This document shows, in pieces, positions 24,755 to 30,582 of a stretch of DNA of 64,000 bases (position 1 is the first letter of the stretch; each line of letters begins with the position of its first letter). Under the pieces are notes generated by a model that saw only the letters and a program-made list of their open reading frames with translations, was not told where the DNA came from and ran no database searches. The DNA comes from Streptomyces sp. NBC_01235 (GTDB taxonomy: Bacteria; Actinomycetota; Actinomycetes; Streptomycetales; Streptomycetaceae): assembly GCF_035989285.1 (NCBI RefSeq), contig NZ_CP108513.1, forward strand, positions 8,990,001 through 9,054,000, in the 5' to 3' direction. The translations under genes were made by a program, and so were the position numbers.

Positions 24755-25984
24755 TCAAGCCGCAGCGGCCAAGGCAGTTGGGAATGCGGTGTTCTCATCG
24801 AACAGTTCCCGTCGCTGGAGGCAGTGGAACATCTGTCCGAGCATGCGGTTGAAGAGGTTGCGCTGGGCGGCAGCGTGCCAGTCCCCACGCTCGTCGCGGC
24901 GGCGACGGTAGTGGGCCATGGCTCCGGGCGAGGCCCGGAGGGCGGAGAAGGCCCAGAGGTAGCCGGCGTGGTTGAGGCGGTCGTTCTTGACCCAGCGGCG
25001 GGTGATGCTGGACTTCTTGCCGGAAGCCCGGGTGATGGGCGAGGAGCCGGCGTATGCCTTCAGGCCGCGGGCGTCGGCGAAACGGCCGCGGTCGTCCCCG
25101 ATCTCAGCGAGCACCCGGGCGCCGAGCTGGACGCCGAGGCCGGGAAAACTGAGGATGATCTCAGCGTCCGGATGCTGAGGGAAAGCTTCCTCCACAGCCT
25201 GGGCGAGGTCGTCGGTAGCCGTGCAGGCGGCCTGGAGCTGGACCAGGAGGGCGAGCATCTGCTTGCCGAGCGCGTCCTCGACGAGGGCAGGATGGTGGGT
25301 GCAGTCCTCGCGGAAGACCTCACGGAGGCGTTCGGTCTCGGCTTCGATGCCGCGTTGGCGACCAGCCCGCTTGAGGGCGGCTTGGAGCTGGGTGCGAGTC
25401 AGTCGAGCAGCTCGCGTGGGAGTTGGAGCCAGCTTGAGGACTTCGTGGGCTTCAGGGCGGCAGAGACCGTTCTTCCAGGACTCGAACGCCGCCAGGGCGG
25501 CTGGGTAGTACTCGCGCAGCAGGGAGCGGAGCTGGTTGGAAATCTGCTGACGGTTCCAGGTGGAGTCCTGCTGGGCGCGGGCGAGGACAGCGATGGCGCG
25601 GGCCAGGTCGCTGTCATCGGGCAAGACCCGGTGGGCGTGCATGTCGGTGCGCAGGATGTTCGCGAGCACCAGGGCGTCGCCCGGGTCGGACTTCTTGCGG
25701 GAGACGCTGTGCCGGTCGCGGTAGCGGGCGGCGGCCATCGGGTTGATCGCGAAGACCTTCCGCTTGCCCTGCCGCAGCACGGCGACCAGCAGACCTCGGG
25801 AGGTCTCGATGGCCACCGGGATCGGGTGTTCCTCGGTGTCGCCGTACTCGGCGAGCATCTCCAACAAGATCTTGTAGCCGGCCGCATCATCCGTGATGTG
25901 GCGTTTGGCCATCAGCTGGCCCGAGTCGTCGACCAGGGCGACGTCGTGCGTCCTCTCGGCCCAGTCGATTCCGCAGTAGATCAA
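24755..25984 (-). CDS. IS110-family transposase
   Basis: 409 residues. The N-terminal DEDD domain begins MIYCGIDWAERTHDVALVD (first Asp) and continues VAIETSRGLLV and SDPGDALVLANILR. The C-terminal Transposase_20 domain contains ILSFPGLGVQLGARVLAEIG and AYAGSSPITRASGKK with the Ser catalytic motif. It looks full length and possibly active. IS110 elements transpose through a circular form guided by a noncoding end (bridge RNA) and usually lack terminal inverted repeats, so the element's ends were not fixed; the 500 bp upstream of the gene (25985-26470) are noncoding and could hold the bridge-RNA-like end. Confidence 0.95.
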   Translation of the reverse strand: MIYCGIDWAERTHDVALVDDSGQLMAKRHITDDAAGYKILLEMLAEYGDTEEHPIPVAIETSRGLLVAVLRQGKRKVFAINPMAAARYRDRHSVSRKKSDPGDALVLANILRTDMHAHRVLPDDSDLARAIAVLARAQQDSTWNRQQISNQLRSLLREYYPAALAAFESWKNGLCRPEAHEVLKLAPTPTRAARLTRTQLQAALKRAGRQRGIEAETERLREVFREDCTHHPALVEDALGKQMLALLVQLQAACTATDDLAQAVEEAFPQHPDAEIILSFPGLGVQLGARVLAEIGDDRGRFADARGLKAYAGSSPITRASGKKSSITRRWVKNDRLNHAGYLWAFSALRASPGAMAHYRRRRDERGDWHAAAQRNLFNRMLGQMFHCLQRRELFDENTAFPTALAAAA

Positions 25985-26878: not shown

Positions 26879-27361
26879 CTAACGGTTGATCGGGATCTCA
26901 TAGACGATCTCGCAGTGTGCGGCGGGCACAACGATGTCCGCCGTCTCCACGGGACGCTCCTCGTCGCTGTAGTACGTCCGCCGGATGTGCGTGACGAGCG
27001 CGGCCTTCTGGATGCCGAGAAGCGATGCCTCATCGGCGGTCGCCTGCCTCGGCTCCGGCTGCTCCACGGCATGGCTGACGGTGATGCCGATGGCGGCCAT
27101 GCGGTTCACCACGCCCGTCCCGGCGTGCGGCCCTCCCTCGGGCAGGACGACGAGAGTGCCGGCCGTGAGGTCGTACGGCTCCCAACTCGTCGACAGTTGC
27201 ACAGGCTTGCCGTCCGCCAGAAACTCGTACGTCGTCCGGACGCACAGCTCATCCTCGGCGATGCCCAGCCGTGCCGCGATCTCCGCCGGTGCCGGCACCT
27301 TGGCGTCGGTCCGGCTCTCCCGATCCCCTAGAGAGCTTTGCCGTGCTGAGCCCTCTGTCAT
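26879..27361 (-). pseudogene. GntR-family regulator fragment, UTRA domain only
   Basis: The frame gives a UTRA effector domain: EIAARLGIAEDELCVRTTYE, then VQLSTSWEPYDLTAGT, ending ADIVVPAAHCEIVYEIPINR. The winged-helix DNA-binding half that should precede it is missing. The first 25 residues (MTEGSARQSSLGDRES...) are not GntR-like and read into a plus-strand fragment. It is most likely the 3' part of a GntR/HutC-type gene, cut at about 27310. Confidence 0.7.
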
Positions 27362-27875: not shown

Positions 27876-28216
27876 AACGGTCGGCAAGGCGGGTGCCGGG
27901 GCAGCCTCCCGTTCAACCCGCACTGGGAGAGGAACGTGGACAACCGGGTTCCTCTCCCTCTTGCGGCACTTCGGTTGGGCCTGACGGGAAGGCGTGCTCG
28001 ACTCGGGGTGTGTTCCCTCGGTCCGGGCTGACGGGGCTTGTGGAGCTGCTCTGTTGATTCTTGGTTCTCGCCGCTGGTTGTTTCCGGACGCTCCCACGGT
28101 CTCGTCATCGGGGTACTACAGTCTTTCGTTGTGCTGTACGTCACATGACGCCGGCGTGGGGTGGGTGGCCTGGGTGGGGCAGCCAAGTGCCCGAGTTGCG
28201 AGATCTGGGGGGCTAC
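27876..28216. other. Intergenic stretch, promoter of the TerD fusion gene
   Basis: About 340 bp with no supported gene; GC is somewhat lower than in the neighbours. It should hold the promoter of the TerD-nuclease gene; GGGGGG lies five bases before its ATG. Confidence 0.4.
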
Positions 28217-30256
28217 ATGCATGAGATGGTCAAGGGCTCGAACATAGCGCTGACGGCGCTGAGTGAGAACGCCGGTTCGGTGATCGTGAGTTTGAGCTGG
28301 GTCAGCCCGACCGGTGAAGGGGATGCCGACGTGTCCGTCCTGCTGCTGGACGCGAACGGCAAGGTGCGCAGTGACAGTGACTTCTACTTCTACAACAACC
28401 CGGTTGCCGCTGACGGGAGTGTGCAACTGCTGGGTAAGACCCCGACGGAGAGCGGCGACGAGGACCGGATCAGCTTCGACTTGACTGCGGTCCCGTCCGG
28501 GGTTGACCGGATCGTCGTAGCGGCGAGCCGCTACGAGGGAGCCGGCTTCGGGGAACTGGAAGATCTGAAGGTGACGTTGGCCGACGGGGGCGGCGAGAGC
28601 TTCCTCAAGTTCGCCATTGATGACGCAGGCACGGTGGGCGCGATCATCTTCGGCGAGTTGTACCGGCGTGGGGACGAGTGGAAGTTCCGTGCTGTCGGAC
28701 AGGGCTACGACACAGGTCTGGCCGGTCTGGCGATGGACTTCGGTGTCGACATCGATGACGACGCGGGCGCAGAGGAAGCGCTGAACGGTACAGAGAGCAG
28801 CGAGCAGGCTGATACGGCTGTTCAGGCTCCGGCTGTTGAGCAGGAACCGCAAGTGGCGCCAGGCTTGGTTCCGGCTCCCCGCCCGCCCGGCGACGAGGTG
28901 GGGCCGAAGAAGGCGGCACGGCCTCGAACTGCGAAGAAGAAGGTCACTGTGCCCAGGGTGGCCAGGAAGTCTCTGGCGGACAATGAGTCCTGGAAGCAGG
29001 CCAGGCTCTTTCCGGTCTCGGTACTCAAGAGCGACCGGGACCGTGAGATGCGCGCTACGTCGGTACTGCTGTCGGTGATGGCGCAGGTGCCGGAGTTCGG
29101 CCGGAGACTCACGGCGGCGTTCGGAGCACCGTCGGGCCGTATGGAGACGTTCACCGAGGTCTCCCTGCCGCACGGCGACACCCCGCGACGCCCCGACGGG
29201 GTTATCCGTGTCGAGCGGGCCGGCAAACTATGGACCGCGCTGGTGGAGACCAAGACCAACGGCAACGACCTCAAGCCCGAGCAGGTGCAGGCATACGTGG
29301 ACATCGCCGCCCGCCGTGGATACGAGGCCGTGATCACGCTGTCGAACGACGTCGCGCTGGAAGGCAGCCCGCTCGTCGACGTCAAGATCGACGGACGGCG
29401 CAAGCACAAGGTGGCTCTCTGGCACCTGTCCTGGGCCGAAGTCACCCACCAGGCGCAGATGCTGATCCGGCACGAGGGCGTCGGAGACAAGGCGCATGCC
29501 TGGCTCCTCCAGGAACTGCTGTACTACCTGCGGCATGAGAACTCCGGCTGCCACGGCTTCCAGAACATGGGATCGGCCTGGGTCCCCGTACGCAACGGAA
29601 TCGACGACGAAACCCTGTGCCAGGGCGACCCGCGCGCACTGGACGTGGTCGAGAGCTGGGAACGGCTCATCCGTCAGATCTGCCTGAGCCTCGGTGGCGA
29701 ACTCGGACAGAAGGTACTGCCTGTCCAGCGCGCCAAGCGCGGAGCCGATCCGAAAGCGCGCCGCAGTCGCCTTGCCGATCAGCTCTGCCTCGACGGCAGA
29801 CTTCAGGCAGAGCTCCGGATCGAGGGCGCACCCGGAATTCTGGCGATCAGCGCCGACCTGCGCACCGGCAAGCTTCGCACCTCCATCGAGATCCCCGCAC
29901 CCGAGCAGGGCTACCCGTTGACCTGGGCCAAACGCCTCATCCGCCACCTGGCCGAGGCCCCAGCAGACCTCCACATCGAAACCCTGGTCGAAGGAGAGAC
30001 CGGTGGGCCACGGGCCACGCTGGAGCGGCTCCGCCCGGAGCCGGCGGACATGCTCCCGAAGAACAACGACACCCACATCACTGGCTTCCGCCTGTCGCTG
30101 TTCAAAAGCATGGGAAGCAGTCGCGGGAACGCCGAATCCGGCTTCATCCGCAGCGTCGACGACGCCGTTCACCGCTTCTACACCACCGTCGTAGTCCGCC
30201 TGGACCACCCGACGCCCCGGCAAGCAACAGCGAAGGAACGCGCCGGAACGGGGTGA
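28217..30256 (+). CDS. TerD-domain protein fused to a PD-(D/E)XK-like nuclease
   Basis: 679 residues. The N-terminal 175 are a TerD domain (MVKGSNIALTALSENAGSV, DADVSVLLLDANGKVRSDSD, SVQLLGKTP), the calcium-binding stress-response fold. A proline- and lysine-rich linker follows (about 195-265, PKKAARPRTAKKK). Residues about 270-480 resemble a restriction-endonuclease core: PDG with Asp 327, then LVETKTNGNDL with Glu 344 and Lys 346, matching D-x16-E-x-K, and an alpha helix EQVQAYVDIAARRGYEAVI. The last 190 residues are unassigned. The protein probably cuts or binds nucleic acid under envelope or phage stress; that function is inferred. It stands alone with its own terminator and has no ter operon nearby. 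Confidence 0.85.
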   Translation: MHEMVKGSNIALTALSENAGSVIVSLSWVSPTGEGDADVSVLLLDANGKVRSDSDFYFYNNPVAADGSVQLLGKTPTESGDEDRISFDLTAVPSGVDRIVVAASRYEGAGFGELEDLKVTLADGGGESFLKFAIDDAGTVGAIIFGELYRRGDEWKFRAVGQGYDTGLAGLAMDFGVDIDDDAGAEEALNGTESSEQADTAVQAPAVEQEPQVAPGLVPAPRPPGDEVGPKKAARPRTAKKKVTVPRVARKSLADNESWKQARLFPVSVLKSDRDREMRATSVLLSVMAQVPEFGRRLTAAFGAPSGRMETFTEVSLPHGDTPRRPDGVIRVERAGKLWTALVETKTNGNDLKPEQVQAYVDIAARRGYEAVITLSNDVALEGSPLVDVKIDGRRKHKVALWHLSWAEVTHQAQMLIRHEGVGDKAHAWLLQELLYYLRHENSGCHGFQNMGSAWVPVRNGIDDETLCQGDPRALDVVESWERLIRQICLSLGGELGQKVLPVQRAKRGADPKARRSRLADQLCLDGRLQAELRIEGAPGILAISADLRTGKLRTSIEIPAPEQGYPLTWAKRLIRHLAEAPADLHIETLVEGETGGPRATLERLRPEPADMLPKNNDTHITGFRLSLFKSMGSSRGNAESGFIRSVDDAVHRFYTTVVVRLDHPTPRQATAKERAGTG

Positions 30257-30260
30257 CGTC

Positions 30261-30313
30261 CGGCCGTGGACAGTTGCACGTGGCCGCGGTTCACGTGCAA
30301 CTGTCCACGGCCG
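30261..30313. terminator. Perfect 22-bp inverted repeat
   Basis: The arms 30261-30282 and 30292-30313 are perfectly complementary around a 9-nt loop, starting 4 bp after the stop of the TerD-nuclease gene. A very strong rho-independent-like terminator, or the scar of a palindromic element. Confidence 0.88.
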
Positions 30314-30582
30314 GGCGCCACGAGGCCGGGTAGCCGCAATGGGACGAGCACCCTGAGCTTGGGAAGCTTGGGTCTTTTAAGGGCAGTTGTTGGGCTGAAC
30401 TGCGGCGAAGCGGCTGTGTGATCCGACACCTGACTTGCTGGTCCCCGCCGTTCCCTCGCTGCTGTACTGCAACGGCTCCGGAGGCCGCTTGGCACCCGGA
30501 CAACGCTGCAGGTCACGGTCCTGCACGTGGCAGATCAGGCGGGACGAGTCCACGGATAGGCCACGGCTGAATGAGAACTGTT
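30314..30582. other. Gene-free stretch
   Basis: No coding region or RNA gene was recognised between the hairpin and the small minus-strand gene at 30583. Confidence 0.4.

Follow-up and report, generated by a model that had tools for sequence, protein, structure and literature searches.

What would a bacterium do with a protein that carries a TerD domain at one end and a restriction-type nuclease behind it? The question is raised by a gene in the window analysed here, a 64,000-nucleotide stretch of the genome of Streptomyces sp. NBC_01235. A nuclease wired to TerD offers a direct read-out via DNA cutting, from which one might learn what the Ter signal is and whether Ter serves immunity.

Gene layout and constraint

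The gene occupies an open frame on the forward strand (28217..30256) that translates into 679 residues. Its start codon matches the start position of the frames of Streptomyces relatives, and a G-run (28207-28212) lies about 5 bases upstream of the ATG. The whole protein can be described as a TerD domain, a basic linker, a PD-(D/E)XK-type core and a tail resembling YbjN and the type III chaperones, the folds being predicted ones. TerD takes up residues 1-175 (28217..28741), and it is followed by a flexible linker (residues 176-255; 28742..28981), modelled with low confidence over residues 181-249 (pLDDT <50). Residues 231-251 of this linker (28907..28969) are basic in sequence, as the original prediction had it, and by eye their RPRTAKKKVT is conserved, fully or almost fully, in Streptomyces relatives. 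The predicted nuclease core comprises residues 256-440 (28982..29536) and the tail domain residues 448-667 (29558..30217). Across 23 pairs of Streptomyces-type orthologs the median dN/dS was 0.095 for the nuclease, 0.154 for the tail and 0.172 for TerD, and the linker was the least constrained part (0.434, 22 pairs); the nuclease part is thus the most strongly constrained region.

We considered whether the fusion might be a false join of two genes, and rejected this: a single frame was found in 26/26 intact members of the class sample described below and in 18/18 members from the genus, and plasmid records annotated by others, in which the fusion is intact, contradict it as well.

Directly 3' of the stop codon lies an inverted repeat of 27 pairs (30258..30316, forward strand; -59.9 kcal/mol, z -8.28), a likely transcription terminator; none of 200 shuffled sequences was equally stable. 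The claim that the gene has its own terminator therefore holds as far as the inverted repeat is concerned, but the repeat has no T-run, and a scan for terminator consensus sequences listed only a separate site at 30352-30372.

Database profiles recognised little of the protein. Pfam gave nothing besides TerD above cut-off, NCBIfam gave a single weak hit, to TonB (E 0.21), and PHROGs gave one family without assigned function over residues 6-175.

A predicted PD-(D/E)XK core

The nuclease assignment depends on a motif and on a fold. PD-(D/E)XK nucleases are characterised by the order D, then E-x-K, then Q-xxx-Y. In the window protein this order is represented by P326-D327 (29192..29197), E344-T-K346 (29246..29254) and, in the next helix, Q356-xxx-Y360 (29282..29296), so that D327, E344 and K346 are placed as originally claimed; an acidic residue in the first helix, E277 (29045..29047), goes with them. 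In an alignment of 121 sequences, the most distant of them 24% identical to the window protein, P326, D327, E344, K346, Q356 and Y360 were identical in 121/121 rows and E277 in 120/121, the remaining row having a gap. All seven were also invariant in an alignment of 12 cores, the other 11 of which are 40-44% identical to that of the window protein, and E277 was invariant in a further alignment (A2). A chance motif is ruled out by the invariance in 121 sequences together with two fold models.

These two models, computed separately for proteins of different clades, both predict a restriction-endonuclease fold, with the alpha-beta-beta-beta-alpha-beta core elements in order and with D and then E-x-K on neighbouring strands. 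The original prediction had staked itself on this fold, and it is this one, not another, that was obtained. Structures aligning to the core include FokI, BspD6I, MspJI, AspBHI, EcoT38I, BamHI and Card1, as well as Can2, Cap4, McrC, Avs4, Shedu and TnsA; this comparison covers Foldseek's top chains, and further families may also match. The Foldseek E-values for the nuclease part were at best 0.012 and 0.0011 in the two models.

At the level of sequence the core stands apart from named families. None of the Pfam nuclease families VRR_NUC, Mrr_cat, PDDEXK_4 and Tox-REase-7 was above cut-off on the window protein: VRR_NUC scored 12.3 bits against a cut-off of 23.8 (E 0.19, residues 324-372), and no other nuclease family appeared at E <=5. 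The matches of relatives were weak only, the commonest among members of a further alignment (A4) being VRR_NUC (23/99) and Tox-REase-7 (18/99), both at E <=1. These two families belong to the same superfamily as PD-(D/E)XK. No convincing relative of the core was found among PDB sequences. From the models, the window core is a predicted PD-(D/E)XK nuclease for which metal-dependent cleavage of nucleic acid is likewise predicted, and the original statement of a TerD domain fused to a nuclease of this type stands at that level.

The TerD and tail domains

The TerD match (PF02342, residues 2-175) scores 164.1 bits against a cut-off of 25.3 (E 3.1e-48), and structure comparison of the predicted model places this part in the TerD fold. 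The two solved TerDs share an acid-rich loop (GDN, TGEG, GDDE), which we take to hold the residues that bind calcium. In the window TerD this loop is changed to GKTPTESGDEDR, and a calcium site can therefore not be assumed, so that the description of the domain as calcium-binding is not supported. By eye, the acid-rich loop is likewise missing in some other TerD paralogues of the window genome (L175, L176).

A signalling role for Ter proteins is an idea that reportedly goes back to Anantharaman and others in 2012. PMC7159879 counts TerD among the nucleotide-binding domains for which specialised nucleotide derivatives are conceivable ligands, and PMC7824862 presents the Ter system as synthesis of a nucleoside signal, TerB and TerD sensors, and membrane and sub-membrane components. 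A TerD-dependent anti-phage system with a McrBC-like part is mentioned in PMC3710099.

The tail, earlier left unassigned, has a predicted fold like that of YbjN and the type III secretion chaperones. YbjN/AmyR or type III chaperones made up 5/8 of the structure rows on the tail in the first model and 7/9 in the second. The matches to YbjN, AmyR and Spa15 have middling Z (7-8), and 2a8e, which is of another family, scores equal to YbjN. Pfam had no match for the tail in the window protein or in its relatives. The predicted fold may resemble that of the TY-chaperones (YbjN, type III chaperones, TY-Chap1-3), as described in PMC9503650, where TY-Chap families are said to occur in conflict systems; the window tail differs from them in having no Pfam sequence match and in being fused behind a nuclease, and peptide binding is only proposed for it.

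Distribution and mobility of the family

The core is a member of a large family that has no Pfam model and that is fused to TerD in some actinobacteria and standalone (about 460 aa) in others. A protein search with residues 250-679 gave at least 1875 relatives at E <=1e-3 (7997 candidates scored); the TerD Pfam label is on every one of the 120 relatives listed, and Streptomyces is the sole organism named among them. When a TerD-free relative served as the query, at least 5699 matches were obtained, and a relative of 27% identity gave at least 787, including Pseudolabrys, a Pseudomonadales MAG and several proteins with a C-terminal GYF_2; these three sets may overlap, and about 8000 candidates were scored per search. 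Standalone cores occur in Nocardioides, Terrabacter, Phycicoccus and others, under the names "hypothetical protein" or "Stress response protein". One testable nuclease family would in this way take in proteins by the thousand that at present go under "TerD family protein" or "hypothetical protein". The distant relatives P0293, P0295, P0300 and P0312 are among those with a C-terminal GYF_2 (PF14237), a candidate gate or adaptor.

Among genome contigs, 524 stretches encode a relative, and the 80 that were kept are from Streptomyces apart from one Kitasatospora and one Actinacidiphila. The full fusion, with frames checked, was present in 18/61 genus members and in 11/40 genomes of a second, overlapping draw. 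Twelve plasmid records have a core match, covering at least 80% of the core in 11; they include Streptomyces plasmids (6) and Rhodococcus plasmids (5), and ten are annotated "TerD family protein", two records being unannotated. Searches of IMG/VR and of phage records revealed no relative. Decayed copies were also seen, namely a frame break in G334, a fragment in G350 and a remnant in G040 that retains only the start of TerD and the end of the tail, as after internal deletion. One genome (G109) has two standalone core copies on different contigs (L144, L153).

Neighbourhood

The window gene was described as standing alone in an accessory region, and this was borne out by its lack of a fixed partner, its patchy occurrence in the genus and its presence on plasmids. 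With a simple gene caller, which called the gene at 97 of 100 loci (L070, L102 and L146 were dropped), no conserved neighbour that could be an operon partner was seen. The commonest neighbour cluster lay within six genes at 39 of 78 Streptomyces-type loci; of the 16 clusters found most often, none was adjacent more than 17 times. At the 19 other loci no cluster was found more than three times. No repair gene was recognised among the commonest neighbour families. Within the window itself, by eye, a frame on the reverse strand (24755-25984) resembles an IS110-type transposase, which fits an accessory region, and part of a long reverse-strand frame in the region 26879-27290 resembles the ligand domain of GntR-family regulators.

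Defence genes were sought with PADLOC 2.0.0, which had no family matching the window protein at E <=1. For the neighbours, 139 proteins within three genes of the gene were scanned at 32 of the 97 loci, one per cluster, and the result applies to these chosen loci alone. At E <=1e-5, 28 families were matched, scattered and each in at most 2/139 proteins among the matches listed; strong ones were mad3 (1.6e-73), mad8 (2.8e-33), PDC-S48 (6.6e-39) and DUF3644 (1.2e-16). In two of the four plasmid contexts looked at, defence-type or toxin genes lie near the fusion. On the Rhodococcus plasmid pRZP3 (L190 7263-14160) the fusion is followed by a ThiF-JAB-DUF6602 set, whose first gene is about 1 kb away, and preceded by a RES-family gene; pR8L1 has a RES-family gene together with a helix-turn-helix gene near the fusion. 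The pSglau1 stretch includes one gene of polymorphic-toxin type and one with a helicase domain, and the fourth context had nothing clear.

The fused form and the Ter genes

In a class sample of 394 Actinomycetia genomes, 58 had a core match, and frames were checked by profile: the TerD-core fusion was intact in 26 genomes and the standalone core in 24. Eight were left out, comprising a fusion with a frame break (G334), two broken standalone genes (G384, G439), two partial ones (G350, G205) and three tiny matches without a core by profile (G260, G421, G196). TerD was found in 104/394 genomes, and PRTase_2, representing the nucleoside branch of Ter, in 128/394 at E <=1e-3, in 95 over cut-off and in 92 at E <=1e-40, the last being our definition of a full match.

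All 26 fusion genomes had at least seven TerD matches (the fusion's own included), whereas TerD was found in one of the 24 standalone genomes, G209, as a single match. Full PRTase_2 was present in 24/26 fusion genomes versus 0/24 standalone ones (Fisher p 2.7e-12, which ignores kinship). The two fusion exceptions are G378, with eight TerD matches and no PRTase_2 match, and G381, with a weak PRTase_2 match in a fragmented assembly. Several standalone genomes have short weak PRTase_2 matches (E 1e-5 to 1e-3), which were excluded from the count, and in the standalone genome G207 a short match is over cut-off together with its neighbours. Thus the fused form occurs, in this genome sample, only alongside other TerD genes. 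Standalone proteins have the same nuclease core, tail and invariant residues as the fusion; they differ from it in having no TerD and in occurring, as sampled, in genomes without full PRTase_2.

Fused cores were found in 9 genera and standalone cores in 12, one genus (g43) having both: there G219 and G151 are fused and have Ter, and G209 and G376 are standalone and have no PRTase_2. In a tree of the cores the 26 fused ones lie on one side of a single branch, with support of 80/74 and a long-branch warning (window genus and f6), and 24 standalone rows from 23 genomes form a separate clade (100/96); a distant GYF_2/proteobacterial group, with G299, is outside both. Since the fused cores are on one side of a branch, the Ter link may rest on a single fusion that then spread among Ter-bearing lineages. 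The two g43 fusions group with G378, of another family.

As to where the Ter genes are, in six fused genomes (G000, G185, G162, G246, G458 and G434) contig C1 carries both the core and PRTase_2, more than 1 Mb apart, so that any signal would have to reach the fusion in trans. Only G162 was seen to have a free TerD gene close to the fusion (within 3 kb). The window genome has 17 TerD stretches, 16 of them above cut-off and some two per protein. PRTase_2 and TRSP are found at 3.701-3.702 Mb, probably in one frame, since the open frame around each has 1295 codons, and TerD genes adjoin at 3.704-3.708 Mb. The window gene, at 9.018 Mb, is 5.3 Mb from this ter cluster, neither in nor beside it.

Two other proteins show what TerD can be joined to. 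At 2.34 Mb of the window genome (L182, 1-1950, forward strand) an Mrr_cat domain (residues 347-459, E 1.5e-31) is followed by a C-terminal TerD (501-645), and since this joins another nuclease to TerD, such fusions arose more than once. In a genus member, G052, the sole relative of this type is a 691-codon frame (L194, 1423-3495, reverse strand) with a TerD 63% identical to that of the window protein over residues 1-180; no nuclease core was found behind it by the core profile, and Pfam recognised nothing apart from TerD and, below cut-off, a weak TerB at residues 599-685 (E 0.028). This single case suggests, from sequence, that the window type of TerD may be exchanged between effectors, as expected of a transferable gate.

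Possible roles

Our preferred explanation, to which we give a probability of roughly one half, is that the window protein is a nuclease switched on in trans by the Ter stress pathway. This is the simplest reading because TerD has been proposed as a sensor of nucleotide derivatives (PMC7159879, PMC7824862) and because fusions are, as sampled, found only alongside other TerD genes. For the gating, the DNA or other nucleic-acid substrate, the part played by the tail, an anti-phage role and the purpose of the protein, we infer the following. The Ter cluster elsewhere in the chromosome would, as others have proposed, respond to stress from phages, plasmids or chemicals by making a nucleoside-like signal; the TerD domain would bind it, and binding would free or assemble the nuclease. 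The basic linker might help to hold the DNA, and the tail might take a second input by binding a peptide, perhaps one that derives from an invader or from damaged proteins. Cutting of DNA would then stop the invader or the cell. In genomes without Ter the same core is kept without TerD, so it would there be gated by something else. Of the original idea of a one-gene sensor-effector system, what survives is that a sensor-type TerD and a predicted nuclease share one chain, but the system is probably incomplete as one gene: the fusion goes together with Ter genes located at other sites of the genome, and therefore the signal would come from other genes. Counting against Ter gating are that the Ter signal is itself a proposal from the literature, that the gene is distant from the Ter cluster, and the exceptions G378, G381 and G207. 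A broader version can be offered only tentatively: Ter would be a second-messenger immune system and the window protein its DNA-cutting arm, with a TerD receptor gating a new PD-(D/E)XK family, the tail as a protein-sensing input, and gate and effector as plug-in modules. The plug-in element is based on cores that elsewhere have no partner or a C-terminal GYF_2, and on the other effector part behind the same TerD type in G052.

Other explanations should also be considered. The enzyme may serve stress response or DNA repair, with TerD sensing metal or oxidative stress, the nuclease trimming or clearing damaged DNA and the YbjN-like tail docking a repair partner. The low dN/dS of the nuclease domain points in this direction, and such constraint is no less compatible with a housekeeping enzyme than with a defence gene under rapid evolution. 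The size of the family, its standalone form in Ter-less genomes, the lack of relatives in IMG/VR and phage records, and the YbjN homologue DR1245, which reportedly partners the repair protein DdrB (cited in the reference list of PMC9503650), point the same way. We nevertheless regard this as rather improbable, since patchy occurrence in the genus, broken copies and carriage on plasmids are unusual for core repair, and no neighbour family is found beyond half of the Streptomyces-type loci, with none of the commonest recognised as repair.

It is more doubtful still that the protein is a type IV-like restriction enzyme that reads modified or foreign DNA itself and needs no Ter signal, TerD and the tail being accessory folding or regulatory parts. 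The modification-dependent MspJI and AspBHI are among the closest structures listed, standalone cores exist in genomes without TerD, and the same genome encodes the fusion of TerD with an Mrr catalytic domain; yet Pfam reveals no DNA-reading domain, and the association of the fusion with PRTase_2 would be left unexplained. Finally, TerD could be a mere localiser or a remnant, acquired by a chance fusion once in a Ter-rich ancestor and leaving the control of the nuclease unaffected. The fused cores can be one clade, so that the Ter association has few independent events, as this explanation would have it. We consider it very unlikely, however, because TerD is under clear purifying selection and is kept in all intact clade members, because the g43 fusions group with a different family, again in Ter-bearing genomes, and because the same TerD type has another C-terminal part in G052.

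Relation to known systems

Signal-gated PD-(D/E)XK nucleases are already a known kind. The nearest analogues of a Ter-gated nuclease are Can2, Card1 and Cap4, which belong to CRISPR type III and CBASS, and by analogy the window nuclease may be gated as they are. It differs from them in that the sensor is TerD rather than CARF or SAVED and in the addition of a basic linker and a YbjN-like tail; in a casual look, no CRISPR or cyclase gene was noticed beside the window gene. With the Ter systems (TerD, TerC, TerB, PRTase_2, TRSP) the protein shares TerD, and its genome holds the PRTase_2-TRSP-terD cluster at 3.70-3.71 Mb, but the gene is far from this cluster and adds a nuclease effector. The joining of TerD to a nuclease is probably not new in itself, its combination with restriction-type domains having probably been anticipated in earlier work. 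No description of this nuclease family or architecture was found in the literature searched by title and abstract start, and as far as that search reaches, the new elements are the family of nucleases, its YbjN-like tail and the finding that fused and standalone forms divide according to the presence of Ter.

Like the window protein, the L182 protein has TerD and a restriction-type nuclease in one chain, but its nuclease is of the Mrr family and lies upstream of a C-terminal TerD, and Mrr_cat is absent from the Pfam listing of the window core. Further TerD fusions were seen in the window genome (L179, L184, L176, L178), consisting of TerD with AIM24, TerD with CAP and two double-TerD proteins.
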